A stretch of DNA of 34,210 nt from a bacterium (GTDB lineage: Bacteria > Elusimicrobiota > Elusimicrobia > UBA1565 > UBA9628). The notes below the pieces were generated by a model, which was not told the DNA's origin, did no database searches, and was given only the letters and a program-made list of their open reading frames with translations. The position numbers and the translations under genes were made by a program. The stretch covers positions 84,092 to 118,301 of the forward strand of contig JAKAQO010000006.1 in NCBI GenBank assembly GCA_021822495.1, read 5' to 3'. Of the stretch, positions 18,814-34,210 are shown in pieces (positions within the stretch are counted from its first letter, which is position 1; every line of letters begins with the position of its first letter).

Positions 18814-18917
18814 TCATCGTTTGCGCCGCTCAAATTCGCGCCTTGGAGGAGTCAAGAATGTCGGAAGATGGCCAAGAAGCCGTGAGGCGGGAAATAGGGA
18901 CAGTCCCTATTTCCACT
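18592..18917 (+). repeat. 326-bp duplicated segment, copy 1
   Basis: This matches 21031-21356 without gaps, with only about a dozen differences by eye. It covers the C-terminal domain of the family-1 protein, the intergenic part, the start of the next small ORF and the palindrome, and stops a few bases after it. Confidence 0.88.
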
Positions 18918-19040: not shown

Positions 19041-19522
19041 TGAACTGGATCGAATTTACAATTAAATCCTGGTATCACGCCCACTCTAGCCTTTTCCTAA
19101 CTTTCGTGGCAATAGCGGGAATTATTGGCGGACATTTTGAATCTGAGAAAAATCTGGGTGGAGCAATTTTTACTTGGCTGATTTCTCTATCAGCTTTGAT
19201 GGGAGCCATTATGCCTTTTTTCCCGTGCGAACCGTCCTATCCTTGGCATATCGCGATGCTCATCGTTTATTTATGTCTCCCTTTACTTATTATTTTTAGA
19301 CGCAAGAAGCAGAGTGGCGAAGAGACCTCTAAAAAACCATCTCTTAAAAGACCTCGTATGTTATTGATTGTGGGAAAGGGCGCAGGCGGAGGGTTAATCG
19401 CATTTATTACTTGCTGGGGTGTTCATTTGGGTTTAGCAGTAGCTACAATCGTCGGCGGAATCTTTGGGTTAATAGTCATCATTAGTTGGATAATTGAAGG
19501 CAAAAACAATAAAAATCAATGA
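19040..19522 (+). CDS. Family-2 array membrane protein
   Basis: The 160-residue product has AAGGAGG upstream and about five hydrophobic segments. Its N-terminal half (W..AHSSLFLTFVAIAGIIGG, then ESEKNLGGAIFTWLISLSAL) is homologous to 26865 (AHRSISFLILAIFLSIGG, ESKRSLTSAIFTW) and more distantly to 26203. The C-terminal half adds a Lys-rich loop and two more helices. It follows a small ORF with a one-base overlap (TAATG). No known family recognised. Confidence 0.65.
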   Translation: MNWIEFTIKSWYHAHSSLFLTFVAIAGIIGGHFESEKNLGGAIFTWLISLSALMGAIMPFFPCEPSYPWHIAMLIVYLCLPLLIIFRRKKQSGEETSKKPSLKRPRMLLIVGKGAGGGLIAFITCWGVHLGLAVATIVGGIFGLIVIISWIIEGKNNKNQ

Positions 19523-19571
19523 AATATGCTACTCCCTAAAAAGAAATTACGCGAACATATAGGGGAAATAA

Positions 19572-19763
19572 ATGAGCAATCGCGAGCAAAAAAGGTTGGT
19601 CCGGTCTGGTGGAATTGGAGAAATTGGGGGGTATATTAATTTTGGCGGACCGCCAAATGCTGGAATTCAGATACCGACACTGGGAATCGGATGGGGGATA
19701 GGCGGTGGTTATTTTACTGGAGTGATTGATACATCTCCTCTTAGACCTTGGACAATTAAATGA
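19572..19763 (+). CDS. Glycine-rich small protein, MSNREQK type (63 aa)
   Basis: The N-terminus MSNREQKRLVRS matches the MTKREQK micro-ORFs of the repeat modules, but here the frame stays open. It continues into GGIGEIGGYINFGGPP, then IPTLGIGWGIGGGYFTG. The Gly-rich amphipathic part recalls secreted peptides, but there is no leader peptide, double-glycine site or Cys. Its stop overlaps the next gene by four bases (ATGA). GGGG precedes the start. It may be the intact form of which the micro-ORFs are decayed copies. Confidence 0.5.
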   Translation: MSNREQKRLVRSGGIGEIGGYINFGGPPNAGIQIPTLGIGWGIGGGYFTGVIDTSPLRPWTIK

Positions 19764-19993
19764 ATCTAATATGGCAAGCGTTGCTCGATTGGAGCTTTTT
19801 CTTGATTATGTTATTTAAGGGGCAAGAAAACTGCGAAAGAGCGATTAGTATTTCTAAATCCATGCACAAGGAGGGCTGGGAACCGCCTAAGATCACTTTA
19901 TTAATGGTTGATGTTGTGAGATACACGCTAACCATAGGCGCTCTTCTGGCGGCCTGTATTGATACTGTACGATTGTTATCCTCATACTTTTGA
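19760..19993 (+). CDS. Small two-helix membrane protein
   Basis: The 77-residue protein has an N-terminal helix (WQALLDWSFFLIMLF), a polar stretch (GQENCERAISISKSMHKEGW) and a C-terminal helix (TLTIGALLAACIDTVRLL). It starts within the stop of the Gly-rich peptide gene (four-base overlap), so the two are coupled. It is not recognisably related to the other array families. Confidence 0.5.
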   Translation: MNLIWQALLDWSFFLIMLFKGQENCERAISISKSMHKEGWEPPKITLLMVDVVRYTLTIGALLAACIDTVRLLSSYF

Positions 19994-20004
19994 TAAAGGA
20001 GAAA

Positions 20005-20346
20005 ATGGCAGATACAGCTACTCATCTTTTAAAGGCAGGAATAGGTCTCGCGGGACTTATATTCTTTATGGGGATGAGAAAGAGACTTCTTTACGCCGAT
20101 GGGAAATCCCATAAAGCGCTGATAAAGAAAAGTCCCCGGTGGGCGCAAAATATTGCCTCTCTGCTTTTATTCTTTCCACTTTGTCTCGGGATATGCGTTG
20201 AGTTGTTCCGCGCATTCGATCCTGGTTTTATACTTTCTCGACGGGTGTCTTTTGTTTTTTCAGCGGGTTGCCTCGCGGGACTCATGCTTTTGGCATTGGG
20301 CATAAAAATTTATGCAATGTTCTCGAAAAAGCGGGTTAAGGAATGA
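20005..20346 (+). CDS. Family-3 array membrane protein (113 aa)
   Basis: AAAGGAG precedes ATG 20005. The product starts MADTATHLLKAGIGLAGLIF, has a basic loop (KSHKALIKKSPRWAQNIA), then two or three helices and ends KIYAMFSKKRVKE. It is a close paralogue of 29388; their last 50 residues are identical and DNA identity continues through the palindrome downstream. The start MADTAT also matches MPDTAT at 29093. Function unknown. Confidence 0.65.
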   Translation: MADTATHLLKAGIGLAGLIFFMGMRKRLLYADGKSHKALIKKSPRWAQNIASLLLFFPLCLGICVELFRAFDPGFILSRRVSFVFSAGCLAGLMLLALGIKIYAMFSKKRVKE

Positions 20347-20380
20347 CCTCATGAGTGAAACAGGGACAGTCCCCATTTCC
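20194..20380 (+). repeat. 187-bp duplicated segment, copy 1
   Basis: This matches 29574-29760 with about three differences by eye. It covers the end of the family-3 gene, the start of the next small ORF and the palindrome; similarity ends at the palindrome edge (CTTGTTCAAG here, ACTGGTCCTG there). Confidence 0.9.
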
Positions 20381-20458
20381 CTTGTTCAAGGCGGTCCGCC
20401 TCAAACAGTAATCGAAGCTCCGCCCGAACCAGTGATTGCGCCGAGAGGAACCCAATGA
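20351..20458 (+). CDS. Array small protein, MSETGTVPIS type ending RGTQ (35 aa)
   Basis: The product begins directly with MSETGTVPIS and carries the Pro-rich tail LVQGGPP…IEAPPEPVIAPRGTQ seen at 17990. The ATG overlapping its stop is followed by AAATAA, so the gene that should be coupled here is lost. The real family-1 gene starts 138 bases later at 20596. This looks like a module whose membrane gene was cut off and replaced. Confidence 0.45.
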   Translation: MSETGTVPISLVQGGPPQTVIEAPPEPVIAPRGTQ

Positions 20459-20595
20459 AATAATTTCTGAATATTAAAAACTAAGTAGGCAGGTCTTTTC
20501 GACTTTCCCATAAATCAGAGGAACAGTAGTAGCAATAAAAGGAGGACTCAGAGAAATAAATTTAGAAATTTAAAAGTGAAGAGAGGAAATCATTT

Positions 20596-21252
20596 ATGAA
20601 ACGACTATTGAATTACTCCCGAAAGGATAGACCTCGAGGATATATACTTATTGTGCTCTTTGCATCTTTAATAGGGATGGGCGTGTCAGCCCTTAAGCCA
20701 GAAATGCGCTCAGCTAGTTATTGGATTCAGATACACGCTCCAATATGGATTGCAGTGACAGACACTGCCATAGTAGGCTTTTGTTTAATCCTCATCGCAC
20801 ATGCATTGCGCACCAAGTCGCCTAAATCTATTTCAGCCATACTGGCTCTCGCTTATACGACTTTTACTCCTACTTTCGTAGTGATGTATGGCGACACGCC
20901 AAAACTCGGGATGATATTGGAGATTTTTTTAGTTGCATGCGTATTGTATGCAGCTATGATGGTATCGCTTGTAGTGAGTGGAGAGGAAGGTTTTTTGAGA
21001 GAAGTCAAGGATATTCCCATGCAGGGAGAAGAAACCTGGACGGACGAATTCGAGCATTTAAAAGTCAAAGAAGAATTAGAATATGAGCTCTCCCAGGAAT
21101 TTCCGGATTTTTGGAGCGCTTCTTCGCATTTTACGAAGCGGAAGAAATTGGAACTCTTGGAGCGGGCCGCTGCAAAGTTCCATGAGAAATATGGCCGCAG
21201 GGAAATGGCGTTGATCGTTAAGGAATTAAAAGAACGAATAGAATCGGCGTAA
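20596..21252 (+). CDS. Family-1 array membrane protein, paralogue of 18142
   Basis: The 218-residue product follows GAGAGGAAATC and has the family-1 layout: four helices including YWIQIHAPIWIAVTDTAIVG, then the charged C-terminal domain. The N-terminal membrane half is clearly diverged from 18142, whereas the C-terminal domain is almost identical. That mosaic pattern points to recent replacement or gene conversion. The 137 bases before it (20459-20595) contain no ORF apart from remnants. Confidence 0.65.
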   Translation: MKRLLNYSRKDRPRGYILIVLFASLIGMGVSALKPEMRSASYWIQIHAPIWIAVTDTAIVGFCLILIAHALRTKSPKSISAILALAYTTFTPTFVVMYGDTPKLGMILEIFLVACVLYAAMMVSLVVSGEEGFLREVKDIPMQGEETWTDEFEHLKVKEELEYELSQEFPDFWSASSHFTKRKKLELLERAAAKFHEKYGRREMALIVKELKERIESA

Positions 21253-21356
21253 TTATCGTTTGCGCCGCTCAAATTCGCGCCTTGGAGGAGTCAAGGATGT
21301 CGAAAGATGGCCAAGAAGCCGTGAGGCGGGAAATAGGGACAGTCCCTATTTCCACT
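21031..21356 (+). repeat. 326-bp duplicated segment, copy 2
   Basis: Partner of 18592-18917, at the same length with no gaps. Similarity stops just after the palindrome (CCACTGGG here, CCACTACC there). Confidence 0.88.
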
Positions 21357-21374
21357 GGGAGGATAAGGGCCTAG
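21297..21374 (+). CDS. Array small protein, MSKDGQEAVRREIG type, short (25 aa)
   Basis: GGAGGAG lies upstream of the start. MSKDGQEAVRREIGTVPIST then GRIRA and TAG. The first 20 residues match 18858, but the tail is only five residues. The next membrane gene starts ten bases later. It could be the minimal form of the small-ORF family or a truncated copy. Confidence 0.4.
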   Translation: MSKDGQEAVRREIGTVPISTGRIRA

Positions 21375-21383
21375 AGGACAGTA

Positions 21384-22277
21384 ATGAATACAAACAAAAA
21401 AATTCCGTCTCCGGTGGTTGGAATTTATCAGAGCATATCCATAGTTTTCAGTTGTAGCCTGACTCTATGGCTTATACATGCCATCGGATTTAAAATAAGA
21501 ATTCTTCGCGCCATAGGAACATTCACCCTTACCTCTATTTATGGAGTTGTACTCTTTCAAAATAAGCCCGATTTAAGAGGCCTCAAATTCGGCACTTTTA
21601 ATATTTTTCAAAAATTGATTTTTATTTATTGTTTATGTGTTTTGAGCGATATTTCTCTACTCTATTTAAGAGACGGTCAGTTTGTTTGGGTCTTGTTGAC
21701 CTTGACTATAGTCCTCGTCCTTTCTTCAGTTATGTTGTGGATGTTCTATCTGCCAGAAACGAAGTTTTCGGGCAATCTATTTTTCACCTCTCCGTCTAAC
21801 ATGCGGCCCATAACAGAACTTTCTATGGCGTTTTCAATTTTGTTTACATCCTCGTTGCTTATTTTTGCATCCACATGGTTTATTCACGGAAAATCATATC
21901 TCAATGGATTTTTAGCGATAACCCTCTTTTCGATAGTCGGATTCTTCGGAATTTTGCCATTACGCTTAGAATTTTGGGTAAAAAAATATCCTTTTCTTTT
22001 GAATCCGGACGCGTTTTTTGATCTTCCGGAGATACTCCCAGGATTGACGCCCACACTGTCGATATTATTCATATCATCCCTCATTGGATTCCTATTCTGG
22101 CTTAACATAGTTTTCCTAACCCATTTTGGTCCACCGCGAAATGCAGTTCTCAGTTTCGGGATTGAAGCATTATCCATTGGGTTTATTTTTAAATCCTTTC
22201 TTGTAAAAGCCCGTAGGAAAAGCAACAAAAGATTTGATGATGTACCCAGAGACAAAAGAAGCGGGAAGCAGAAATAA
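21384..22277 (+). CDS. Eight-helix membrane protein, unknown
   Basis: The 297-residue product has AGAGGA before ATG 21384 and about eight hydrophobic segments spread over its length, ending in a basic tail (RRKSNKRFDDVPRDKRSGKQK). The last codons coincide with the CAGAG-CAAAAGAAGCGGGAAG start that also begins the long repeat modules, so the gene end was probably shaped by recombination there. It is larger than the other array proteins and shows no conserved transporter motif that I recognise. Confidence 0.6.
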   Translation: MNTNKKIPSPVVGIYQSISIVFSCSLTLWLIHAIGFKIRILRAIGTFTLTSIYGVVLFQNKPDLRGLKFGTFNIFQKLIFIYCLCVLSDISLLYLRDGQFVWVLLTLTIVLVLSSVMLWMFYLPETKFSGNLFFTSPSNMRPITELSMAFSILFTSSLLIFASTWFIHGKSYLNGFLAITLFSIVGFFGILPLRLEFWVKKYPFLLNPDAFFDLPEILPGLTPTLSILFISSLIGFLFWLNIVFLTHFGPPRNAVLSFGIEALSIGFIFKSFLVKARRKSNKRFDDVPRDKRSGKQK

Positions 22278-22291
22278 AAGGAGTGCAAACT

Positions 22292-22762
22292 ATGATCAAA
22301 GTGAAAAATTGGGTTATTTTGATGATGTTGGCAACCATGGCTATTTCTTTGTTTTATGGTTGCGATCTTAGATACGGATTTCTCCTCGGAAATTTTCGCT
22401 TATCGAAGAATTCGAGACTTCCACAATGGATATCAATTCCCCCTGGATATGCAAGATCAGATTTGAACGTCGATATTGTGCAATATTCGTATCGTACAGT
22501 GTTTCTTGTTTATGGTCCGCCGCCAGAGAAGAAACTTCTACTTGAGAAAGCAGGCGTGGAGCGATTGCATCCCGTTTCTCAACGAGAATTCGATGCCCAC
22601 CAGACAGGGGCAGTTTACCCAAATTATTCAATAATCACAGTTGATGGTATCAGCGAAATTTTCGAGCAACAGAAACCAGGAAATGTTTTGTTTATCACAG
22701 ATGATCCATACCTAAAAAAAATACTCCCAAGACAGAAAGCCACTACGATCCAGAAACAATGA
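22292..22762 (+). CDS. Membrane-anchored or lipoprotein-like small exported protein
   Basis: AAGGAG lies nine bases before ATG 22292. The 156-residue product has one N-terminal hydrophobic segment (WVILMMLATMAISLFYGCD), possibly a signal anchor or an atypical lipobox with C24, and a soluble remainder (VQYSYRTVFLVYGPPPEKKL, GISEIFEQQKPGNVLFITDD). No family recognised. It lies 14 bases after the preceding gene and just upstream of repeat copy G. Confidence 0.55.
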   Translation: MIKVKNWVILMMLATMAISLFYGCDLRYGFLLGNFRLSKNSRLPQWISIPPGYARSDLNVDIVQYSYRTVFLVYGPPPEKKLLLEKAGVERLHPVSQREFDAHQTGAVYPNYSIITVDGISEIFEQQKPGNVLFITDDPYLKKILPRQKATTIQKQ

Positions 22763-22957
22763 AAGGAAAATAAATGACCAAGCGCGAGCAAAAAAACTTG
22801 GCCCGGTTGAATTTAAAAAATATGTTTTTCATTGGGAGGGTAGCGGGGAAAAATGAATTCAGAAATTCCGTGGGAGCGTGAGGGCATGAGGGAAATAGGA
22901 ACAGCCCCTGACATGAATTGCCAAGCCTTGGGAGTGGGGGACAGTCCCCATTTCCCC
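22740..22957 (+). repeat. Long repeat module, copy G (degenerate first palindrome, second palindrome downstream)
   Basis: The MTKREQK and MNSEIPWE parts are present. The usual palindrome is degraded (AATAGGAACAGCCCCTGAC at about 22893), followed by GACATGAATTGCCAAGCCTTG and a fresh GGGGGACAGTCCCC at about 22937. The same GACATGAATTGCC insertion is in copy L (27217). Confidence 0.75.
22774..22881 (+). CDS. Micro-ORF of the repeat module, MTKREQK type (35 aa)
   Basis: MTKREQKNLARLNLKNMFF is followed by IGRVAGKNEFRNSVGA and TGA. The frame lacks the TAG found in copies B and J and overlaps the next small ORF in another frame. It is possibly a by-product of the repeat rather than a protein. Confidence 0.25.
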   Translation: MTKREQKNLARLNLKNMFFIGRVAGKNEFRNSVGA

Positions 22958-23149
22958 TTGCAAGGGGGGCGAACCGGGGCTACACTTCTTGGAACGCTTT
23001 TTCGCGAAGGAGGCGGCATGAAAAAAATATTTGGGCGAGCCGGATTTTTCCCTCCCCTTGCGGGAGAAGGTGTCAGGACGAGGGAAATATTATTTTCGGC
23101 GGTTTTGATCGTGGCCTGGACTGTTGTCGCGGCAAGAGGAACCCAATGA
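22853..23149 (+). CDS. Array small protein, MNSEIPWE type with TM tail ending RGTQ (98 aa)
   Basis: This is the longest member: MNSEIPWEREGMREIGTAPD, a Gly-rich middle, a basic stretch (GGGMKKIFGRAGFF) and a hydrophobic segment (ILFSAVLIVAWTVVA) ending ARGTQ. Its stop overlaps the family-1 gene at 23146 by four bases. The RGTQ ending is shared with 17990 and 20351 although the rest of the tail is unrelated. The reading frame was extended through inserted sequence carrying a second palindrome. Confidence 0.5.
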   Translation: MNSEIPWEREGMREIGTAPDMNCQALGVGDSPHFPLQGGRTGATLLGTLFREGGGMKKIFGRAGFFPPLAGEGVRTREILFSAVLIVAWTVVAARGTQ

Positions 23150-23628
23150 GAAAAAAATATGACTCTTTTAAAGAAATTTTCAAGAAAGGTCCCCTAAAGT
23201 TATCTCCAAATCTAAAAGTTACTGATTATATAATTGCATCGTCTGTCATCGTTGTACTTGTGGCAGCCCTTATATTGAGGCATTATACATCCTCTTCGCA
23301 GCCCATCGGCTATTGGCTGGAAAATCATATTCCTGTCTGGTTTGCATTCGCGGACATTGTAATAGTTAGTATATGCGCTATATTAGTTATACATCTGCCC
23401 TTTAGAATAGCCGGATTTTTTTGGGTATTATTCTTGCTGGCTCTCTCGATTCTAATGCCATGTCTTCACATTGCTCTGAACAATCGTTATGGATTGTGGA
23501 CACTAGCTTTCCTCTGCATAAGTTCAATATATAGCGTATTTGGAACTGTATGGCAATCACGCCTCGGCCAGAGGCAAAAGGACGGTGTATCCGGAAGCAG
23601 AAATGACACAGGGAAGCAGGAAAAATAA
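23146..23628 (+). CDS. Family-1 array membrane protein without the C-terminal domain
   Basis: The 160-residue product has about four helices with the family-1 signature YWLENHIPVWFAFADIVIVS. It ends in a short polar tail (RQKDGVSGSRNDTGKQEK) instead of the charged domain of 18142 and 20596. ATG 23146 overlaps the small ORF by four bases. The tail codons are part of the start of the next repeat module (copy H), suggesting that recombination replaced the original C-terminus. Confidence 0.6.
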   Translation: MRKKYDSFKEIFKKGPLKLSPNLKVTDYIIASSVIVVLVAALILRHYTSSSQPIGYWLENHIPVWFAFADIVIVSICAILVIHLPFRIAGFFWVLFLLALSILMPCLHIALNNRYGLWTLAFLCISSIYSVFGTVWQSRLGQRQKDGVSGSRNDTGKQEK

Positions 23629-23781
23629 AATGGCCAAGCGCAAAAAAGGTTGGCCCGGTCGAATCTGAAAAATATGTTTCTCAAGGCTTGGAGCGAAAAA
23701 CAGCGGAGAAAAATGAATTCAGAAATTCCGTGGGAGCGTGAAGGCATGGGGAAAATAGGGACAGTCCCCATTTCCACTCCG
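23570..23781 (+). repeat. Long repeat module, copy H
   Basis: Similar to copy B. In the MTKREQK part a deletion gives ATGGCCAAGCGCAAAAAAGG (23632), so the micro-ORF stops after MAKRKKGWPGRI. The palindrome is at about 23750-23775. Confidence 0.8.
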
Positions 23782-23811
23782 GCCTTCTGCCCATTTGAGG
23801 TTTCAAAATGA
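23713..23811 (+). CDS. Array small protein, MNSEIPWE type (32 aa)
   Basis: GGAGAAAA precedes the ATG. MNSEIPWEREGMGKIGTVPI is followed by a short tail STPAFCPFEVSK. The stop overlaps the next gene by four bases (ATGA, 23808-23811), so this short form still couples precisely to its neighbour. No function known. Confidence 0.5.
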   Translation: MNSEIPWEREGMGKIGTVPISTPAFCPFEVSK

Positions 23812-24665
23812 ACCGAACTTTCACGCCCGAAAAGGAACGGAACCATCTAATTGCCCTACTGATATTATTTATTGTATACCCCATATCTTTTTATGGTGGC
23901 CGGACGGGCCCAATAATGGAGATTTCCAAATGGATTCCCCGTCCTCTTGCCATTCTAGATCTTTTCATCATGCCGCTATCATTCGTAGCAATCCCATTAT
24001 CTATGCCCTACTCACGGAAGATCATCATTATTTTGGTGATTTCCAATTTTGCGAACCTATTAACGTCGCCTAGTATTTCCAGGATCGGCGAAAATTCATT
24101 CGCGGCAGTCATTCTAATGCTATGGGGCGGTATATGCTTTATAGTTTCACAGTATGTAATGTTTTCGGGATATGGAATAAAGGAAGATGAGCAAGTGGCC
24201 AATTTGGCGCAAGCAAAAAAAAATGATTTAGAAAAACCAAAAAAAATAGATTGGCGCGGCAAGAATTTGACATTTCCCAATCAAGAAAAACAGCGCCGCT
24301 TGATTTTCGATTGTCTTATGGTCACAATGCTTCAAGTTCTAGGTCTTGGGACGGCGCTGTCAAACACAAGTTCTTATCCGACGCCGATAAGGGATGCCCT
24401 TATCGTTTGCGGCTTCATCGCCTTTTTCCTTTTTCCGATTTATATTATTTTTCCGCGCTTTGGCGGCAAAATCTATATCGCGGAGGCGATTTATCTGCTG
24501 GTATCACTTTTTTTCGGCTCAAGCTTTTCGCCCGGGCCATTTTTTCTCGTGGATTGTGCCATAACTTTGGGATTCGTTTTGCTGTTTATTATCCCACCCG
24601 CCTTCATAGGGTTCGCCGCACTCAAGGCGTATGCAGCCGGAGATAAAAATGACGAGAGGCAATAG
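23808..24665 (+). CDS. Seven-to-eight-helix membrane protein, unknown
   Basis: The 285-residue product has about four helices (residues 15-130), a charged loop (KKNDLEKPKKIDWRGKNLTF) and about four more helices with FGGKIYIAEAIYLLVSLFFG. The two halves may be a fused pair. It is coupled to the small ORF upstream by a four-base overlap, and its TAG is immediately followed by the ATG of the next small ORF. No recognised family. Confidence 0.6.
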   Translation: MNRTFTPEKERNHLIALLILFIVYPISFYGGRTGPIMEISKWIPRPLAILDLFIMPLSFVAIPLSMPYSRKIIIILVISNFANLLTSPSISRIGENSFAAVILMLWGGICFIVSQYVMFSGYGIKEDEQVANLAQAKKNDLEKPKKIDWRGKNLTFPNQEKQRRLIFDCLMVTMLQVLGLGTALSNTSSYPTPIRDALIVCGFIAFFLFPIYIIFPRFGGKIYIAEAIYLLVSLFFGSSFSPGPFFLVDCAITLGFVLLFIIPPAFIGFAALKAYAAGDKNDERQ

Positions 24666-24860
24666 ATGAATTATTGGAAACCCGGTAAAACAAAGTCATC
24701 TATTACGACTCGCCGATTTCGGCGCGGAAAACCTCTGCCCTGGAGCCTTTGTATTCGCAAAAGCCGCAAGGCCGCTCGCGCAAAAAGGCGGGAAATAGGG
24801 ACAGTCCCTGACAAACAGCGGAGGAGATTTCTGGGCGAGATCAAGCTTCCATGCAAATAA
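24666..24860 (+). CDS. Basic small protein containing the palindrome segment (64 aa)
   Basis: Very basic: MNYWKPGKTKSSITTRRFRR, then RKAARAKRREIGTVPD, encoded across a half-degenerate palindrome (24791-24811), ending LGEIKLPCK. It begins directly after the previous stop and overlaps the next gene by ten bases. It fits the small-ORF position in the array, but its N-terminus is unlike the MNSEIPWE and MSEDG types. Confidence 0.4.
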   Translation: MNYWKPGKTKSSITTRRFRRGKPLPWSLCIRKSRKAARAKRREIGTVPDKQRRRFLGEIKLPCK

Positions 24861-25402
24861 AAAACATAGTTGCATCCATCATGATTATTTTCTTTGAAAA
24901 TACACTTGCAGGGGCTCCCCTAAATAAATATTCTCACAAATTCGTAGATAAACGTTTCGGCGAAATTGTAATTGGTAAAGGTCCACATAAATTAAAAAAA
25001 ATAAAAAATATATATGGAAAAGGCTTTTTTTCTAAATATAACGACCAGCTTTGCTATTTTAACGAAGAACTCAATCAATATCTTGACTTTTTCATTGGTC
25101 CAGATGATTCAATCGAAGGGATTCTTGTTTCATATAAAAGTCCAGGCGCTGAATGCAAAAGAGCGGTTACTCATAAAAAAGGAGGGTTTTGTTCTGAAAA
25201 GGGCATTTGCCTTGGAACATCTTACTCCAAATTGATGAAGATTTACGGTAAACCACATAAAGTTAAGAGAACGAAAGAGGAAGTCCAGGTTGAATACCAT
25301 ACGGATTACAAGCAAGACCCTCAAGTTTCTCTTGCATATGATTCTAGCTATAAATTTAAGCATGGAAAACTTTTTGAATTGATGGTTTGGGATGGTGAAT
25401 AA
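24851..25402 (+). CDS. Exported soluble protein, unknown
   Basis: The 183-residue protein has a signal peptide (IVASIMIIFFENTLAG, cleavage near residue 22) and a soluble part with four Cys. The segment GICLGTSYSKLMKIYGKPHK resembles a motif common in small bacterial secreted proteins (G-x-x-L-G-x-S-x-x-x-x-x-x-x-Y-G-x-P). Its base composition is AT-rich. It is one of only two clearly secreted soluble cargo products, the other being 29927. The start at 24851 lacks a strong ribosome binding site and may depend on coupling. Confidence 0.6.
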   Translation: MQIKNIVASIMIIFFENTLAGAPLNKYSHKFVDKRFGEIVIGKGPHKLKKIKNIYGKGFFSKYNDQLCYFNEELNQYLDFFIGPDDSIEGILVSYKSPGAECKRAVTHKKGGFCSEKGICLGTSYSKLMKIYGKPHKVKRTKEEVQVEYHTDYKQDPQVSLAYDSSYKFKHGKLFELMVWDGE

Positions 25403-25431
25403 TGGGAGGCAAAAAGCGGTAAAGGGGATAA

Positions 25432-25962
25432 ATGATCACTAAAAATATTCAAAAAATAAAAATCATTAATCGACAATTCAAGCTCCTTAAGGAGAAAAAA
25501 TGTTGGTATGTTTCTTGTGGGCGAAACGTTGGCAGTTCTTTCCAGCTTTGCTTGGGAGAAAAGATCAGAAGAAAAAAAGCTCTTGGCAATAAATTCCACC
25601 CTAAGTCTTTTAGAGAAAATACTGCCGAATACGCCTTTCTTGTATGGTGTAGTTGGCGATTATCAAAGGACGAAAAACTGATCGTGACAAGCGACGATTG
25701 TGATAACCATTATAAGTGGTGCAAATACTTACGAAAACTGATCGGATTGAGGATCATCAAAATTCAGCTAATGAACTGTTTTTTTGATTTTAAAATAATT
25801 TTTAATGAAGGTTGGCAAATACATATTTTTTGCGATAACGGCAATAAAGATCCAAGCATAGACACTAATTGGGAAATATTTATTCCTGGAGATTATCTCA
25901 TTAGCGTGGGAACTCATCAAAATATTGATTGCCCCCAGAGACAAAAGAAGCAGGAAAAATAA
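25432..25962 (+). CDS. Soluble protein, possibly immunity-like, unknown
   Basis: The 176-residue protein starts after AAAGGGGATAA. It is Cys- and Lys-rich with no membrane segment. The C-terminal part (DFKIIFNEGWQIHIFCDNGN…NWEIFIPGDYLISVG) has the strand pattern seen in some small immunity-type proteins of contact-dependent systems, but I cannot name a family with confidence. The final codons (QRQKKQEK) belong to repeat module J, as with other genes that end at a module border. Confidence 0.5.
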   Translation: MITKNIQKIKIINRQFKLLKEKKCWYVSCGRNVGSSFQLCLGEKIRRKKALGNKFHPKSFRENTAEYAFLVWCSWRLSKDEKLIVTSDDCDNHYKWCKYLRKLIGLRIIKIQLMNCFFDFKIIFNEGWQIHIFCDNGNKDPSIDTNWEIFIPGDYLISVGTHQNIDCPQRQKKQEK

Positions 25963-26112
25963 AATGACCAAGCGCGAGCAAAAAAGGTTGCTCCGGTTGA
26001 ATCTGAAAAATATGTTTCTCAGGGCTTGGAGCGAAAAATAGCGGAGAAAAATGAATTCAGAAATTCCGTGGGAGCGTGAAGGCATGGGGGAAATAGGGAC
26101 CCATTTCCCCCT
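25935..26112 (+). repeat. Long repeat module, copy J, with a 5-base palindrome deletion
   Basis: It has the same order as copy B. The palindrome (about 26088-26110) reads GGGAAATAGGGACCCATTTC, having lost AGTCC from the centre, which shifts the reading frame of the small ORF. Confidence 0.85.
25964..26041 (+). CDS. Micro-ORF of the repeat module, MTKREQK type (25 aa)
   Basis: MTKREQKRLLRLNLKNMFLR plus AWSEK and TAG. Same length as 17905 with two substitutions. It begins one base after the previous stop. Confidence 0.35.
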   Translation: MTKREQKRLLRLNLKNMFLRAWSEK

Positions 26113-26203
26113 ACAAGTGATTAAAGCAGGATCAATTGCTTTCAGTGAGGTCATCGAACTTGCCGCCGTTCTTGCTTTATCTCATTGTTGGGGTGGGAGA
26201 TAA
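26051..26203 (+). CDS. Array small protein, MNSEIPWE type ending HCWGGR (50 aa)
   Basis: MNSEIPWEREGMGEIG is followed, because of the 5-base deletion in the palindrome, by a new frame THFPLQVIKAGSIAFSEVIE, then LAAVLALSHCWGGR. The stop overlaps the membrane gene start (TAATG, 26201-26205). Without the deletion the frame would stop almost at once (SPYK, TGA). The ending resembles ITHCWAGK at 26861, also before a family-2 gene. Confidence 0.5.
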   Translation: MNSEIPWEREGMGEIGTHFPLQVIKAGSIAFSEVIELAAVLALSHCWGGR

Positions 26204-26682
26204 TGATGTTACATAAAATTTTTACTGCCTACCCAATCGCAAGCTATCTATTGCTATTTGTGGCTCTAATTTTTTCCGCTTACCGCGATTCCAAGAAAGG
26301 CTTAGGCATGGTAGCATTGGAGTGGTGGTACGGGCTCCCCATTCTAATTATGCTCGACATCCCTATTTGTCGGAAATTTCATTTTGGAATTATCATAACT
26401 TGGGCTACGATAATTACATCCCTTATTATTTATATCAGCATGCTTCCATTTTTAACGGCGAAATGGAATAAATCTGGGCGGCCAAATGAAAATTCCAATA
26501 GTATGCAAATTGGGGGTGTCATAGGCTTAGCTATCGGGTTTGTTATTGGGCTAATTAGTATCACTTTAGTAGAGGTTTTTGGGCATTATTATTGGCCGGT
26601 AGGTGTGTTGTCCTGGGGGGCAATGGGTAGCGCTCTAGCAGGATTTATTGTGGGTGCCATTATTGGAAAAAATCGCTCTTGA
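26203..26682 (+). CDS. Family-2-like array membrane protein
   Basis: The 159-residue product has GGGAG upstream and about five helices. The N-terminal part (YLLLFVALIFSAYRDSKKGL) is a distant relative of 19040 and 26865. The C-terminal part is a Gly-rich helical pair (IGLAIGFVIGLISITLVEVF, AMGSALAGFIVGAIIG). It is coupled to the small ORF upstream by TAATG. ATG 26206 is an alternative start. No known family. Confidence 0.6.
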   Translation: MMLHKIFTAYPIASYLLLFVALIFSAYRDSKKGLGMVALEWWYGLPILIMLDIPICRKFHFGIIITWATIITSLIIYISMLPFLTAKWNKSGRPNENSNSMQIGGVIGLAIGFVIGLISITLVEVFGHYYWPVGVLSWGAMGSALAGFIVGAIIGKNRS

Positions 26683-26861
26683 TCATTCGGTTTAACGCAG
26701 TCGGACTTCGCAATCTGGAGGCGCAAAGCGCCGAGGATGTCGAAGATCAATACAGGGAGGTCTTTGGGACTTCAATGAACTCGCGGACTTTTGAGCTGCG
26801 CTTGACGAGGGAAATAGGGACAGCCCCCATTTCCATCACTCATTGTTGGGCAGGGAAATAG
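26679..26861 (+). CDS. Array small protein ending HCWAGK (60 aa, or 28 aa from internal ATG)
   Basis: A frame from TTG 26679, overlapping the previous stop by four bases, reads FNAVGLRNLEAQSAEDVEDQ, then MNSRTFELRLTREIGTAPIS and ends ITHCWAGK. ATG 26775 gives only MNSRTFELRLTREIG onward and has GGGAGG 16 bases upstream. The palindrome (about 26809-26834) encodes REIGTAPIS. The family-2 gene begins three bases after the stop. The MNS start and REIG core place it in the small-ORF family, but its middle is different. Confidence 0.4.
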   Translation: MIIRFNAVGLRNLEAQSAEDVEDQYREVFGTSMNSRTFELRLTREIGTAPISITHCWAGK

Positions 26862-26864
26862 ATT

Positions 26865-27164
26865 ATGCATTATCTAATGCTTTTAGAAACTTGGGGCGAT
26901 GCTCATCGTTCAATCAGCTTTTTAATCCTAGCAATCTTTCTTTCCATCGGTGGTTACCAAGAATCAAAAAGATCTCTTACTTCGGCAATTTTTACATGGT
27001 TCTATGCGTTATCATTTTTCGTTATAGCGGCTGTCGGATTTGCCATGTTTATAGGAGTCGGATCCTCACTCAGTGTACGACTTCTAGTCGCAGTATTTAC
27101 ACTGATTACAGCAATTGCTGTATTGGGGATATATTTAGTTATTCGGTGGAGAAAAAATAAATGA
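26865..27164 (+). CDS. Family-2 array membrane protein (99 aa)
   Basis: Three helices: AHRSISFLILAIFLSIGG, SAIFTWFYALSFFVIAAVGF and LLVAVFTLITAIAVLGIYL, with a basic end (RWRKNK). It aligns with the N-terminal half of 19040 (same AH.S, GG, ES(K/E)…L..AIFTW spacing). Its stop overlaps the next MNSEI start by four bases (ATGA, 27161-27164). Confidence 0.6.
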   Translation: MHYLMLLETWGDAHRSISFLILAIFLSIGGYQESKRSLTSAIFTWFYALSFFVIAAVGFAMFIGVGSSLSVRLLVAVFTLITAIAVLGIYLVIRWRKNK

Positions 27165-27283
27165 ATTCAGAAATCTCGTGGGAGCGTGAAGGCATGAGGG
27201 AAATAGGGACAGTCCCTGACATGAATTGCCAAGCCTTGAGAGCGGGGGACAGCCCCCATTTCCATTGGGATCCCACATGTTGA
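27161..27283 (+). CDS. Array small protein, MNSEISWE type (40 aa)
   Basis: MNSEISWEREGMREIGTVPD is followed by MNCQALRAGDSPHFHWDPTC. Two palindromes (about 27198-27218 and 27243-27263) lie in the frame. No membrane gene follows; the next gene is the regulator at 27400. This looks like a module whose partner has been lost, or the end of the first part of the array. Confidence 0.4.
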   Translation: MNSEISWEREGMREIGTVPDMNCQALRAGDSPHFHWDPTC

Positions 27284-27320
27284 ATGCGGAGTTCATTTCA
27301 ACGGCAAATTCTCGTGGGTC

Positions 27321-27395
27321 TTACATATAGTTCTAGCCGCCAAGAGGGCTTTCTCCGTCGTATTATTACATATAGTTTAAATATAGTTTACATAT
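27321..27395 (+). promoter_or_regulatory. Direct repeats before the AlbA_2 gene, candidate operator
   Basis: TTACATATAGTT occurs at 27321-27332 and 27366-27377, with a related TTACATAT at 27388-27395. ATATAGTTTA is repeated at an 11-base step (27370, 27381), about one helical turn. The cluster ends five bases before ATG 27400. It would suit autoregulation by the downstream DNA-binding protein (inference). Confidence 0.5.
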
Positions 27396-27399
27396 TGAC

Positions 27400-28893
27400 A
27401 TGTCAGCGTCATTAAAGTATCCTATCGTTATGGAATCCAATTCTTGGATCGCTCGCGCTCAAGACTTACTGCGCCGAAGCCTCGATCTATCGGTTCCCCA
27501 TGAGCTCAATGAGCTGGATTGGAAGCGCGAGTTGAGTTCCAACAAGGAGCGCTTTACCGAGCACCTGTCGGCTTTTGCGAACCTTGACCAGGGCGGCTTT
27601 TTGGTTTTCGGGGTGACGCATGACGGCAAAAAAGCCGGGATTGACTCATCGGCCGTTAAAAACATCATTGAGAAGATAGGCAATGCCGCCAGGGACGGAC
27701 TAGAACCGTCCTGCGCGATAGACCATTTCATAGAGAAAACCGAAACGCCGGGCAAGGTCCTGCTTTATATTCACATCCCCGGCTCAACGCAAAAGCCCGT
27801 GCGCCTGCGCGGGAAAAGCCTGGAGTTTTCATTTATCCGCAGCGCCGGACAAACCAGAAAAATGAACGAAAGCGAAATCCGCGCGGCGTTATTGCGCTCA
27901 CGGACATTGCGGTTCGAGGAGCTGACCATCAATTCGGCGGAATCTGCGGCAATTTTAGAGGACTTTGAGATCTCCGCGGTCTGCCAAAGGCTTAAAATCC
28001 CATTTTCAGGCGAGCCCGAGCGGCGCGGTGAAATCATGGTCAATCGCAAATTCGCGGCAAAAACCGCGACAGGCCTCGCGCCAACTTATCTTGGCGTTCT
28101 CGTTACCGGCAAGGATTTCAGAAAATTGCCCGGAGCGGAACATTACGGAATTCGGCTGACAAGATACCGGGGGAATTCCAAATTGGAGGCCGAGCGCGAT
28201 GAATTTTATTTTAAGGGTTTCGTCCATTCCTTGGACCAGCTGATTGATGACATTATGGGCCTTCTTCCCAAGAGCGAAGTCATCGAAAAAGCCACGCGAA
28301 GACAAGTCCCCGTCTATCCGGAGATCGCCCTGCGCGAATTGATCGCCAACGCCGTCATCCACCGAGACTACTCTCGCACCGACAGCTACGTCCAGGTGGA
28401 AATATTCGATGACAGAATCGAAATAACCAATCCCGGCTCTTTGTTGCCCGACATGGCCGTTGACCGACTCATCGATCAGCAGCCGCGAGCGCGCAACGAG
28501 ATCCTGGCCGCCCTCATGCGCGAACTCGGTTTTTGCGAGGAGCGTGGCAGCGGAATAGATAAAGCGGCATCTTCCCTTGAGCTCTACGGCCTTCCGGCCG
28601 TTCATTTCATCAACAATCCCGATTATTTTCGCGCTATTCTTTACGCGCCCAAGCCCTATAAAGCCATGGACAACGAGGAGAGACTGAGGACCGCTTACCA
28701 GCATGTTTGCCTGCACTATGTCGCGGGGCAAAAGGTGACCAATGCTTCATTAAGAGCTCGCCTAAAACTCTCCGGAAACCAGTCGCAACTGGTTTCCGCG
28801 CTGATTCGCAAGGCGATCGACGCTAATTTAATCAAGATCGCCAATCCGGGAGCGTCTCCGCGCTATATTCATTATGTTCCCTATTGGGCATAA
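27400..28893 (+). CDS. AlbA_2 (Schlafen-like) domain plus HATPase_c_4 plus winged-helix protein
   Basis: The 497-residue soluble protein has an N-terminal AlbA_2 divergent domain (ELNELDWKRELS, then FANLDQGGFLVFGVTHDGK; residues about 30-160). A GHKL-type ATPase-like region follows, around 305-395 (ELIANAVIHRDYS, VEIFDDRIEITNPG, ERGSGIDKA). The C-terminus is a winged helix (TNASLRARLKLSGNQSQLVS). Such proteins are common in mobile elements as putative transcription regulators or defence-associated ATPases. ATG 27400 has no ribosome binding site; ATG 27430 (MESNSWIARAQ) is an alternative. GC content is closer to the chromosome than that of its neighbours, so it may be a separate acquisition. 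Confidence 0.85.
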   Translation: MSASLKYPIVMESNSWIARAQDLLRRSLDLSVPHELNELDWKRELSSNKERFTEHLSAFANLDQGGFLVFGVTHDGKKAGIDSSAVKNIIEKIGNAARDGLEPSCAIDHFIEKTETPGKVLLYIHIPGSTQKPVRLRGKSLEFSFIRSAGQTRKMNESEIRAALLRSRTLRFEELTINSAESAAILEDFEISAVCQRLKIPFSGEPERRGEIMVNRKFAAKTATGLAPTYLGVLVTGKDFRKLPGAEHYGIRLTRYRGNSKLEAERDEFYFKGFVHSLDQLIDDIMGLLPKSEVIEKATRRQVPVYPEIALRELIANAVIHRDYSRTDSYVQVEIFDDRIEITNPGSLLPDMAVDRLIDQQPRARNEILAALMRELGFCEERGSGIDKAASSLELYGLPAVHFINNPDYFRAILYAPKPYKAMDNEERLRTAYQHVCLHYVAGQKVTNASLRARLKLSGNQSQLVSALIRKAIDANLIKIANPGASPRYIHYVPYWA

Positions 28894-29010
28894 ATGAGAA
28901 AGCATAAGTTAATATCCGTGGTCGAGAAACCGCGATGAAAAGCCTCAAGGCGTTTATTCGCATCAAACTGGGCGCGCCGTTTTGAAAGTATCCAGTTTTG
29001 GCCGATTTTA

Positions 29011-29057
29011 ATGGGAGCGTGAAGGCATGAGGGAAATAGGGACCGTCCCCATTTCCC
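29011..29057 (+). repeat. Partial repeat module M with palindrome
   Basis: GGGAGCGTGAAGGCATGAGG and the palindrome GGGAAATAGGGACCGTCCCC (with one central change) remain. The MNSEIPWE start is missing, leaving only MREIGTVPISH and a stop. The 200 bases from 28894 to 29092 hold no other gene. Confidence 0.75.
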
Positions 29058-29092
29058 ATTAAACAAATTCGGATTTTAAAGGAGAGAAAAAA

Positions 29093-29362
29093 ATGCCAGA
29101 TACAGCTACTAATCTCAATAATCTAGTTCAGGGCTTGGTCATGTTGACTATGGGTATCATCTTATTTCTCAAGCGCGAAGAATTCATTAATAAGGCGCTT
29201 AGGTCAGAAGAGGTGTTCTGGAATATCAAGTACACTGGCAATGAGCCAGGCATGTGGTTTAAAAAATTCATCGGGAAATTTGTTATCTACTCTATAAGTT
29301 TTGTTTTTGTCGTAGGTGGTTTCAGCTTTGTCTGGACCGCTTGCCGCAACTTAATACGCTGA
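29093..29362 (+). CDS. Small membrane protein of family-3 type (89 aa)
   Basis: AAAGGAGAG precedes ATG 29093. MPDTATNLNNLVQGLVMLTM matches the start of 20005 (MADTATHLLKAG). Two helices flank a polar loop (REEFINKALRSEEVFWNIKY), and the second is FVIYSISFVFVVGGFSFVW. The next family-3 gene starts 25 bases later, so two relatives are in tandem. Confidence 0.55.
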   Translation: MPDTATNLNNLVQGLVMLTMGIILFLKREEFINKALRSEEVFWNIKYTGNEPGMWFKKFIGKFVIYSISFVFVVGGFSFVWTACRNLIR

Positions 29363-29387
29363 CGAAGGAAAGGAGAGAGAGTTAATT

Positions 29388-29726
29388 ATGGAACGTTTAG
29401 AACACTTCTTAAAGGCAGGAATAGCTTTTGCGGTACTTATATTCTTTATGAGGGCCAGAAAAAGATTCATTGACGCGGCCGAGAAATCCCATAAAACGCT
29501 GATAGAAAAAAGTCCCCGATCAGCGCAAAATATCGCTTACCTGCTTTTATTCCTTCCAATCTTTCTCGCGGCCTGCGTTGAGTTGTTCCGCGCATTCGAT
29601 CCTGGTTTTATACTTTCTCGACGGGTGTCTTTTGTTTTTTCAGCGGGTTGCCTCGCGGGACTCATGCTTTTGGCATTGGGCATAAAAATTTATGCAATGT
29701 TCTCGAAAAAGCGGGTTAAGGAATGA
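29388..29726 (+). CDS. Family-3 array membrane protein, paralogue of 20005
   Basis: The 112-residue product has GGAGAG upstream. Its N-terminal half (ERLEHFLKAGIAFAVLIFFM, KSHKTLIEKSPRSAQNIAYL) is diverged from 20005, but the C-terminal half is identical in protein and nearly identical in DNA (29574 onward). The mosaic suggests recent recombination between modules. Confidence 0.65.
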   Translation: MERLEHFLKAGIAFAVLIFFMRARKRFIDAAEKSHKTLIEKSPRSAQNIAYLLLFLPIFLAACVELFRAFDPGFILSRRVSFVFSAGCLAGLMLLALGIKIYAMFSKKRVKE

Positions 29727-29760
29727 TTTCATGAGTGAAATAGGGACAGTCCCCATTTCC
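29574..29760 (+). repeat. 187-bp duplicated segment, copy 2
   Basis: Partner of 20194-20380. Similarity stops exactly at the end of the palindrome. Confidence 0.9.
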
Positions 29761-29865
29761 ACTGGTCCTGTAGCGTACATTTTGAATCGGCTAGAGGTCG
29801 CGCCCGATCTTGCGAAAGCTCTCAGGCAAGGGGCCGCGCCGCGTCGAATATTTGTACTCCGGTGA
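29731..29865 (+). CDS. Array small protein, MSEIGTVPIS type (44 aa)
   Basis: MSEIGTVPISTGPVAYILNR is followed by LEVAPDLAKALRQGAAPRRI and FVLR. It begins four bases after the family-3 stop, as at 20351, but has a different, basic, helical tail. The next gene (29927) has its own ribosome binding site 60 bases on, so coupling is not evident here. Confidence 0.4.
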   Translation: MSEIGTVPISTGPVAYILNRLEVAPDLAKALRQGAAPRRIFVLR

Positions 29866-31914: not shown

Positions 31915-32793
31915 ATGGGAAGTAAAGTGATCAAGGTCAGGATTATGAGAGAGGACTATGAGGTTGGTATTGAGATCAGAAGAGCGGGGTTGAGCGTGAT
32001 GATGGCATTAGAAAGATGGGGGATTTTGAGTTTATCTCAGCTGGATGGATTGATTTTCCATAAAAGATTAGAGGCAAGAAAGAGGCTGGATTTATTTTTT
32101 AGCTGTAAGTTTGAAGGTGAGTATTGCGGCGCGGGCTATAAGGTTTTGAGAAGGCTGGAGAAGCGTGGATTAGCGGCGGTTCGACGCTATGTCAATGCGC
32201 CGCGAGTCTACACCTTAACGCGGAAAGGCCATGAGGTCTTGATGAAGGCGGGGCTGGCGCGGCTCAACGATTACAGGGATTCCGTGGCGGATTCATTGGT
32301 CAAGCATGAGATATTGACCAACGGAATCGGCCTAGCGATCAGCGAACTATTGGGGCTTCCTGTTTCTACCGATTTTGAGCGACAGGTCATGAGCCGAGGC
32401 GCGGCGGGAAACCACGCTCGAGACTCTTTTCCGCTGCCAGATCTTTGGATTACCGATCATGAACAGCCAAAGGCGATTGAGGTAGAGCGAACCCAGAAAT
32501 CGGCGGCGCGCTACCGCAAGCTCTGGGAGTTTTATCGCAATAACCTTCCCCGCACGGCGGTCGTTCTTTACATCAGCTCCTTTCCGAACGGCCCCCGGCT
32601 GCTGCTGTCGCGGGCGCGGAAATTAATGGCTGACTTCATCTATGTTTCCTCCATTGAGGACTTCCAAAAATCGCTGGGAACATGCCCCTTCGTGGGCTAC
32701 CGCGGCGGAGAGATTTATTTGGAGAAACGGCCGGAGCCGATCGTCATTAACGCCGCGGCGGAATTGCGGGGAGGGTATGCGCATGCGCTTTGA
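31915..32793 (+). CDS. Replication-relaxation family protein
   Basis: The 292-residue soluble protein has an N-terminal winged helix (ALERWGILSLSQLDGLIF, YKVLRRLEKRGLAAVRRY, VYTLTRKGHEVLMKAG). The second half contains PDLWITD then KAIEVERTQKSAARYRK, a D…E-x-E pattern like a PD-(D/E)XK nuclease core. This matches the Replic_Relax family, found in plasmids and integrative elements and thought to act in replication or mobilisation. It overlaps the HTH gene by 11 bases. ATG 31915 is taken as start; ATG 31945 is possible. Confidence 0.75.
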   Translation: MGSKVIKVRIMREDYEVGIEIRRAGLSVMMALERWGILSLSQLDGLIFHKRLEARKRLDLFFSCKFEGEYCGAGYKVLRRLEKRGLAAVRRYVNAPRVYTLTRKGHEVLMKAGLARLNDYRDSVADSLVKHEILTNGIGLAISELLGLPVSTDFERQVMSRGAAGNHARDSFPLPDLWITDHEQPKAIEVERTQKSAARYRKLWEFYRNNLPRTAVVLYISSFPNGPRLLLSRARKLMADFIYVSSIEDFQKSLGTCPFVGYRGGEIYLEKRPEPIVINAAAELRGGYAHAL

Positions 32794-33034
32794 TGGTATT
32801 GAGAAAACAGGCGAAGACTCCGGCTTTATAACGGTGGACATCGTGGCGCGCCGCCTACATGTTTCGAGGCGGACTATCTATGAGTGGGTTAGCCAGCGGA
32901 GAATTCCATTTTACAAGATTGGGGGGACGCTGGTTCGATTCCGGCCGGACGAGATTGAGATTTGGACAAAGGAAAAATCTCGCCCGATCAAAGAATTTGG
33001 AGCTAAAAAATTGCTAGAATCGGAGGTCCTATGA
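32783..33034 (+). CDS. Excisionase-like helix-turn-helix protein
   Basis: The 83-residue protein contains one MerR/HTH_17-type domain: FITVDIVARRLHVSRRTIYE, then WVSQRRIPFYKIGGTLVRF and EIEIWTKEK. Proteins of this kind next to tyrosine recombinases direct excision. ATG 32783 sits eight bases after GGGAGGG; 32777 is also possible. It overlaps the previous gene and shares ATGA (33031-33034) with the integrase start, so replication, excision and integration genes are translationally coupled. Confidence 0.85.
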   Translation: MRFDGIEKTGEDSGFITVDIVARRLHVSRRTIYEWVSQRRIPFYKIGGTLVRFRPDEIEIWTKEKSRPIKEFGAKKLLESEVL

Positions 33035-34210
33035 GCGTGTATCGGAAACAAAAATCGGACGGCAGTTGGGATTGGTATATTGATTACCGCTTCCAGGGCC
33101 GGAGGATTCGCGAGCGGATTGGGCCGAACAGGGCCCAGGCCGGATTGGTTTTGCAAAAACGCCGTGTTGAAATCGCCGAGGGCAGATTTTTAGAAAAGCG
33201 CCAGGAGTCGAATACGACTCTTGGCGAAATGGCCGAGCTTTACGTTGAGAACCATGCCCGACCGTCCAAAAAATCATGGAGAGATGACAAGCGGATTCTC
33301 GGGGGCTTCGTCAAATACTTTGGAAGCGTCCGCCTCTCGGAGATCACGCCGCTGAAACTCGAAGCCTACCGCGCCGAACATCGCTCGAAACTCAAGCCCG
33401 CGACTTTAAACCGGCATATCGCCGCAATCAAGACCATGTTTTCCAAAGCCATGGAATGGGGCAAGGCGACCGGAAACCCCGCCCTCAAGGTTAAATTGTA
33501 CTCTGAAAACAACGCTCGCGTTCGCTTCCTCGAAAAGGGCGAGATAGCCGCTTTGCTTGCGGCCAGTCCGGAGTGGCTTCGTCCCATAATCATTGTGGCC
33601 GTATGCTCGGGAATGCGAAAGGCCGAGGTTTTGGGTTTGACCTGGGATGATGTGGATCTTCAAAACATGGTTCTCCGAGTTCGCGATTCCAAGAATGGAA
33701 GCTCCCGTTTTGTGCCGATGAGCTTGCCGGTTTTGCGAACTCTTCGCTCCATTCAAAAAGTCACGGGTTCGCCCTACGTGTTTCCGAGTCCCGGAAGTCG
33801 GACTCGCTTGTATGGGCGGGTTAGGTATGCTTTTGATCGGGCGGTTAAAGAGGTGGGACTTTCGGATGTCGTGTTTCATACCCTTCGGCATTCAGCGGCG
33901 AGCCATTTAGTTATGGGGGGCGTGGATATTTCGACCGTTGGCGCCATCCTAGGCCATAAATGCTCGCGTATGACTGAACGCTATTCCCATCTCGCTCCCG
34001 CGCACAAGTCGCGGGCCATTAAGGCGTTGGACTCCATCGTTCCCGCTTTTCAAATGGACACCCAGGTGGACAAAACCGCTGAGCGAAAGAGCGTTGCCGA
34101 AGCCGATGCATTTGCTAAAATAGATGGAAATTATTATGAAAATTGCGATTTATTCCCAGGTGGTGAAATGGTATCACAGCGGACTTTGAATCCGTTATTC
34201 CTGGTTCGAG
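33031..34210 (+). CDS. Tyrosine recombinase/integrase, open at window end
   Basis: At least 393 codons, without a stop before the window ends. The SAM-like N-terminal domain (LGEMAELYVENHARPSKKSW, LKPATLNRHIAAIKTMF) is followed by a complete catalytic domain: R196 in CSGMRKAEVLGL, K221 in DSKNGSS, H283 and R286 in HTLRHSAASHL, H309 in AILGHK and nucleophile Y318 in TERYSHL. After the usual end (near residue 345, PAFQMDTQVD) the frame continues through a candidate tRNA promoter, attR and the tRNA-Gln 5' half (LFPGGEMVSQRTLN) and into chromosomal tRNA sequence. In the circle it would instead end at 15036, giving about 400 residues. It overlaps the HTH gene by four bases. Confidence 0.95.
   Translation, partial: MSVYRKQKSDGSWDWYIDYRFQGRRIRERIGPNRAQAGLVLQKRRVEIAEGRFLEKRQESNTTLGEMAELYVENHARPSKKSWRDDKRILGGFVKYFGSVRLSEITPLKLEAYRAEHRSKLKPATLNRHIAAIKTMFSKAMEWGKATGNPALKVKLYSENNARVRFLEKGEIAALLAASPEWLRPIIIVAVCSGMRKAEVLGLTWDDVDLQNMVLRVRDSKNGSSRFVPMSLPVLRTLRSIQKVTGSPYVFPSPGSRTRLYGRVRYAFDRAVKEVGLSDVVFHTLRHSAASHLVMGGVDISTVGAILGHKCSRMTERYSHLAPAHKSRAIKALDSIVPAFQMDTQVDKTAERKSVAEADAFAKIDGNYYENCDLFPGGEMVSQRTLNPLFLVR
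34055..34072 (+). repeat. TGGACA pair, candidate recombinase arm site (right)
   Basis: TGGACACCCAGGTGGACA lies inside the integrase gene, 75 bases before attR. It differs by one base from 15119-15136 near the left end and has the same orientation. Confidence 0.35.
34094..34121 (+). promoter_or_regulatory. Element-borne promoter candidate for the restored tRNA-Gln
   Basis: TTGCCG (34094-34099) and TAAAAT (34116-34121) are separated by 16 bases and lie 32 bases upstream of the tRNA 5' end, within integrase codons. Because integration separates the tRNA from its native promoter, the element must supply one; this is the best candidate seen. Confidence 0.5.
34148..34192 (+). repeat. attR: 45-bp direct repeat, right end of the element
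   Basis: Identical to 14951-14995. To its right the tRNA continues normally (CGTTATTCCTGGTTCGAG), showing that this side keeps the chromosomal 3' half. Confidence 0.95.
34154..34210 (+). tRNA. tRNA-Gln (anticodon TTG), restored at attR, cut by window end
   Basis: Acceptor TCCCAGG, D arm GTGA/TCAC, anticodon arm GCGGA-CTTTGAA-TCCGT (anticodon TTG), then a short variable loop and the T-arm start CCTGG-TTCGA are visible. The T arm and acceptor 3' strand lie beyond the window. It is read in the same direction as the integrase, whose frame overlaps it. Confidence 0.9.

Follow-up and report, generated by a model that had tools for sequence, protein, structure and literature searches.

Integrases whose C-terminus is altered by integration are already known, and the idea that such an alteration acts as a switch has been published for Mx8 (PMC6070905, PMC4701971). 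Mx8 and Mx9 carry attP within their tyrosine integrase gene, the 3′ end of which is exchanged for a new one upon integration (PMC6070905); for Mx8, a C-terminus of 112 residues is replaced by one of 13 residues, resulting in a less active enzyme (PMC4701971). In the rumA-targeting streptococcal ICEs, attR lies in the integrase gene and the C-termini of the excised and integrated forms differ (PMC4701971), and in the integration-dependent immunity of mycobacteriophages, attP lies in a coding sequence and integration alters both the C-terminus and the fate of the protein (PMC9934374). The orders and orientations of integrase and tRNA genes, including KplE1-type arrangements, have been surveyed (PMC2951348), and recombination with the 5′ region of a tRNA is described as considerably less frequent (PMC6563490). 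The Islander passages on this class count 159 of 3919 islands with a 5′ tDNA fragment, a minority class, and permit integrases that extend across attP, citing Mx8 and SSV (PMC4383910).

We analyzed a window of 34 210 nucleotides, the end of contig C14 in a 2.2-Mb assembly (genome G000), in which an exact 45-bp direct repeat occurs on the forward strand at 14951–14995 (attL, including the displaced 5′ part of a tRNA-Gln gene) and 34148–34192 (attR). Our main reading, to which we assign a probability of about 0.6, is that the locus is an integrative element of ∼19.2 kb, in which a tyrosine integrase recombines the 5′ half of the tRNA gene with attP, crossing over near the anticodon loop, and int overlaps attP, and that the tail exchanged upon integration is mostly neutral, the main change being that of the gene context, with a lowering of Int at the RNA level. 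An exact copy of the final 127 bp of the window terminates contig C15 in reversed orientation, which indicates that the window sequence continues on C15; such an overlap is expected between neighboring contigs of a de Bruijn assembly, and we infer the join of C14 to C15 on this basis. In G002, G003 and G022, the junction of int (or its remnant), tRNA-Gln and glmU was found on single contigs. From the joined sequence, ARAGORN detected tRNA-Gln(UUG) at 34154–34225 on the forward strand, 34154–34210 of which lies in the window; this tRNA was detected at attR after joining and at the empty site as deduced, but not at attL. ARAGORN reported no tRNA from the window alone, because the window end cuts the tRNA gene.

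The att repeats are direct, one lying in the intact tRNA gene and the other holding its 5′ fragment, and when the interval between them was removed in silico, a normal tRNA-Gln was obtained behind spoVG. The left chromosomal flank contains, both on the forward strand, an ispE-like ORF (13705–14610), named from a reading of its translation, and spoVG (14601–14879), supported by a Pfam SpoVG match (E 5.9e-31) and the spacing in relatives. In most relatives with an unoccupied site, spoVG was found directly 5′ of tRNA-Gln, and the locus of G004 has the order of spoVG, a short relic and an intact tRNA. Extra 34-bp copies of the tRNA-Gln 5′ end were also observed just 5′ of the att site in G002 (L119, near 7690) and G004 (L122, reverse strand, near 4808), each of which is probably a scar of an older integration.

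The integrase has a PF00589 match with an E value of 9.4e-32, and R196, K221, H283, R286, H309 and the catalytic tyrosine Y318 were invariant among 17 sequences. Its start is overlapped (ATGA) by a xis-like gene with an HTH_17 domain (32777–33034, forward strand, chosen start codon; Pfam E 4e-12), which presumably encodes the excisionase. The last ∼65 codons of int coincide with the left arm and core of attP. The core is flanked by a direct repeat, TGGACACCCAGRTGGAC, of which one copy lies within int, ∼95 bp before the core (34055), and the other ∼125 bp beyond it (15119); the window contains two matches, compared with an expectation of 0.02. The left copy, TGGACACCCAGGTGGAC, occupies 34055–34071 within the int coding sequence and the right copy, TGGACACCCAGATGGACACC, occupies 15119–15138, both on the forward strand, and relatives have matching repeats, the right copy at the same position. 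The same pair occurs in a second element of G000, which lies in tRNA-Tyr, and in G002, while G047 carries GACACCCTAATGCCACCTGG on both sides of the core and G216 carries the repeat pair TTAGCACA. These paired repeats flanking the core are likely arm-type integrase sites, and since the left repeat lies inside int, an arm site is translated there, giving the peptide MDTQVD of the Int tail. A further copy of the attP right arm (L068:739–885) lies ∼4.9 kb from the attR tRNA and passes at GAATC into sequence that is not a tRNA; this may be a secondary-site or rearrangement junction.

The cargo of the element has several features of its own. From 16881 to 29777, copies of a 25-bp palindrome, GGAAATAGGGACAGTCCCTATTTCC, and its variants are scattered between small ORFs, and the element accounts for most of the exact or near copies in the genome; these palindromes are perhaps REP-like. 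Two pairs of 300-nt stretches are duplicated (18588–18887 and 21027–21326 with 96% identity; 20029–20328 and 29409–29708 with 88%), many of the cargo ORFs resemble small membrane proteins, and the region of 27400–28893 encodes an AlbA_2/Schlafen-like protein with a RecG-type C-terminal domain.

The ORF of int (forward strand, 33031–34210 and a further 38 bases of the next contig) has no stop from its ATG at 33031 to 34209 and, across the join, passes through the 45-bp att repeat and the whole of tRNA-Gln(UUG) to a TAA at 34246–34248, where the int stop and the glmU start (34248) overlap as TAATG. The integrated Int thus has 405 codons and 405 aa with the tail PLFLVRAQAWERGFTEEA, and the circular Int deduced from the joined frame has 400 aa, ending in LSAPVSDPSDDKP and a stop at 15034–15036, 13 codons beyond the core; this circular 3′ end occupies 14996–15036 on the forward strand. 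Residues 1–387 are common to both forms and the last 13 residues are replaced by 18, which are encoded by the 3′ half of the tRNA and the glmU leader. The int frame therefore spans the crossover block and its C-terminus is altered by integration. The preliminary description of this DNA had claimed a stop-free frame from 33031 to the window end that enters tRNA-Gln through the repeat, a circular Int of ∼400 residues closed by the stop near attL, and an att site belonging to int such that the two forms differ in their C-termini; all of these were borne out by the ORF listing, the joined C14/C15 frames and the relatives. The integrated tail, which it had left undefined in length, was delimited by the sequence past 34210 on C15.

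When the 38-codon tail preceding the core was shuffled, the frame was still open in about 8% of cases, so that one open frame alone is weak evidence, while the recurrence of run-through among several related elements takes it beyond chance. A sequencing error or missed stop, one of the two weaknesses that the preliminary description had named for itself, was ruled out by the open frame in G002, in G022 and in the tRNA-Tyr element of G000. The other, a stop before attR in related elements, does not occur in these three closest relatives but is often found in more distant ones, as described below.

Relatives were collected by a protein search of 57 relatives and then of 235 genomes of the class, together with a tRNA search, and the same layout of an integrase running into a tRNA was recovered among them. 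In G002, whose Int is 93% identical, both attR and attL were found on separate contigs, giving the circular tail LSEPVSSPSDDKP and the integrated tail PLFLVRVQAWESVFWGGS. The frame of G022 (67% identity) runs through to PLFLVRIQAWEGAP. The tRNA-Tyr element of G000 (C7:2937–4137 and C6:192801–192884), whose attR is on C7 and whose other repeat copy, exact over 81 bp, is on C6, encodes an Int of the same integrase family with 57% identity that also runs through; its integrated form stops inside the tRNA and its circular form ends in SLFEPFEFSEEEPKKPPFSDEK. Run-through was also found in tRNA-Tyr elements of G047 and G216, which belong to other families of the class and have repeats of 40 and 39 bp, respectively, and the repeat ended at tRNA position 39 in all five delimited run-through elements. 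The circular tails of the tRNA-Gln elements of G000 and G002 are similar and equal in length, and the remaining circular forms end in short tails, often with an acidic or Pro-rich composition. For G022, G189, G050, G046, G062 and G036, no attL was found in the sequence stretches examined.

We scored 25 integrases that are closely followed by a tRNA on the same strand: 10 continued past position 39 (two of them borderline, with stops at positions 42 and 44), 2 stopped in the repeat region and 13 stopped before the tRNA; run-through is therefore not general to this integrase family. The trait was clustered on the tree with five changes, a number as low as which was obtained in 1 of 500 shuffles, and six run-through integrases from tRNA-Gln and most tRNA-Tyr elements formed one branch with a support of 94/90. 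In the tRNA-Arg element of G004 and the tRNA-Thr element of G211, int stops at tRNA position 8, before the repeat end, and no C-terminal swap results.

We then asked what the swapped tail contributes as protein. Between the tRNA-Gln integrases of G000 and G002, dN/dS was 0.15 for residues 1–335 and about 1.0 for residues 336–387, with 34.5 synonymous and 18.5 non-synonymous changes in the former against 3 and 11 in the latter (Fisher P = 0.006), the tail value resting on 14 changes in this single pair. The tail dN/dS between G000 and G022 was 0.42 with synonymous sites near saturation, so that the tail may be under some constraint, possibly on its DNA sites, and the run-through common to the six-member branch may reflect some constraint on the open frame. 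In an AlphaFold model (17 sequences) with a mean pLDDT of 79.5, the last catalytic helix spans residues 323–336 and most of residues 340–393 scored under 50; the Int tail is accordingly disordered in the prediction, and the swap point lies ∼50 residues beyond that helix and about 70 after the catalytic tyrosine. A conserved protein domain in the tail was ruled out by the dN/dS of ∼1 and the predicted disorder. When integrated and circular tails were compared by eye across elements, no common ending or ssrA-like tag was seen, and a degron was ruled out since the integrated tails lack a common ending. Thus, the C-terminal swap is real but probably has a minor effect on catalysis, and the tail looks like an unconstrained read-through of the att site rather than a tuned protein switch.

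The near-neutral dN/dS of the tail and the presence of int stops before, inside and after the tRNA within one family would also suit a plainer explanation, that the overlap arose by accident from the proximity of attP to int and is selectively neutral, with no consequence at either the protein or RNA level. We consider this possible but somewhat unlikely, given that all six integrases of one branch run through, in tRNA-Gln as well as tRNA-Tyr, and that RNase P should in general process any transcript that enters a functional tRNA. The preliminary description had proposed instead that the swap switches the activity or stability of the recombinase, with a circular C-terminus that is active for integration and a tRNA-encoded tail giving a weaker, altered or unstable Int that limits re-excision. 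Although the swap is in frame, G000 and G002 have similar circular tails, those of other elements share a short and often acidic or Pro-rich character, and the less active C-terminus of Mx8 Int offers a precedent (PMC4701971), this proposal is not supported by the disorder predicted so far past the catalytic tyrosine, the loss of constraint just before the swap or the lack of a degron-like end. Furthermore, the circular-tail DNA of G000 and G002 is no better conserved in alignment than the noncoding bases after it, and 13 of the 25 scored relatives stop before the tRNA; we therefore regard a protein switch as doubtful.

The main reading places the larger change in the context of the host genes. 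Most relatives that lack an element here have a gap of 1–27 nt between the end of spoVG and tRNA-Gln, and spoVG extends over the first 15 bases of the tRNA in the three genomes G010, G011 and G017 (L061, L063 and L064); from this spacing and overlap, the usual locus looks like a spoVG–tRNA-Gln–glmU operon joining mRNA and tRNA, and glmU also lies 3′ of tRNA-Gln in G002, G003 and G022. A protein gene overlapping tRNA-Gln thus occurs at these three loci without any element. Among the 49 tRNA matches, the anticodons of which were checked, there was one Gln(UUG) and one Gln(CUG), and tRNA-Gln(UUG) is probably essential because it is the only CAA reader found. Integration into the 5′ half would cut the link to spoVG and make xis–int the 5′ neighbor of tRNA-Gln(UUG) and glmU, and with the host leader so displaced the element would have to supply transcription of the tRNA and perhaps of glmU. 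This altered context is perhaps more consequential than the protein swap.

A TATAAT at 14915–14920 (forward strand), read in the sequence, is tentatively the −10 box of the native tRNA-Gln promoter that integration separated from the tRNA; a similar TTATAAT is present in G004, and the promoter scan did not flag the site at 14915–14920. The scan matched TTGCCG-16-TAAAAT within int (34094–34121, forward strand) as a possible element-borne promoter of tRNA-Gln, where 0.8 such sites are expected by chance in that stretch, and −10-like bases occur at the corresponding place in G002 and G009. As a match no better than chance, a promoter inside int was dropped as a firm claim and is kept as a possibility. 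The decayed copies of G003 (an int pseudogene with an internal stop and a deletion) and G009 (only two int ends left) have both retained the int 3′ end next to the tRNA, as would suit a leader but also plain relics. That the element has become fixed, with int mattering only as a source of a leader or promoter for tRNA-Gln and glmU, would agree with these two copies but is very unlikely in view of the intact int of G000 and G002, the purifying selection on its body (dN/dS of 0.15) and the exact att sites at both ends.

RNase P cuts pre-tRNAs at the 5′ end of the tRNA, which at this locus falls after 374 full int codons and one base. In the RNA-level part of our main reading, integration would join attP to the tRNA 3′ half and create a complete tRNA within the int message; if int is co-transcribed with the tRNA, an RNase P cut after codon 374 would remove the stop codon from the int message, and this stop-less message would be a substrate of tmRNA, trans-translation removing the product. 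A tmRNA gene is present in the genome. A circular transcript could not form the tRNA and would keep its stop, and the lowering of Int would be limited to the integrated state because attR RNA folds as a tRNA and attP RNA does not. Co-transcription of int and the tRNA, RNase P cutting at this site and the action of tmRNA are assumed on general grounds. As a material control of Int, this RNase P route is speculative and on balance unlikely, and we hold it similarly improbable that tRNA folding is how the element perceives its integrated state, with Int turned down at the RNA level and the int 3′ end doubling as a leader or promoter of the tRNA and glmU. A literature search for integrase and attP with RNase P or trans-translation returned nothing on point, which is not proof that the idea is unpublished. 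If the RNase P prediction is true, the element would have a simple, repressor-free way of tying recombinase supply to its integration state, and this would explain how the leader of a single-copy tRNA can be displaced without host death; if it is false, the locus cautions that a C-terminal swap at the sequence level is alone no evidence of a switch.

Compared with the described systems, this locus resembles Mx8 and Mx9 in having attP inside int and a C-terminus changed on integration, but differs from them, so far as Mx8 is described in the papers citing it, in that 13 residues are replaced by 18 within a tail predicted to be disordered and in that the new end comes from the sense-read 3′ half of a tRNA and the leader of the next gene. 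The mycobacteriophage systems likewise have attP in a coding sequence, but their gene is a repressor whose phage form carries an ssrA-like tag, no counterpart of which was seen here. The rumA-targeting ICEs differ in using a serine integrase and a protein-coding target, and in KplE1-type arrangements the att region overlaps the int promoter rather than the int 3′ end. As in the 5′-fragment islands of Islander, it is the 5′ part of the tRNA that is displaced; the passages on those islands contain no analysis of effects on the protein, tRNA transcription or the int message. The present elements document an integrase branch that targets the tRNA 5′ half with a coding sequence including both attP and the tRNA, and what is new relative to all of these systems is the sense run-through of the tRNA 5′ half, common to one integrase branch, with both protein ends defined in five elements.
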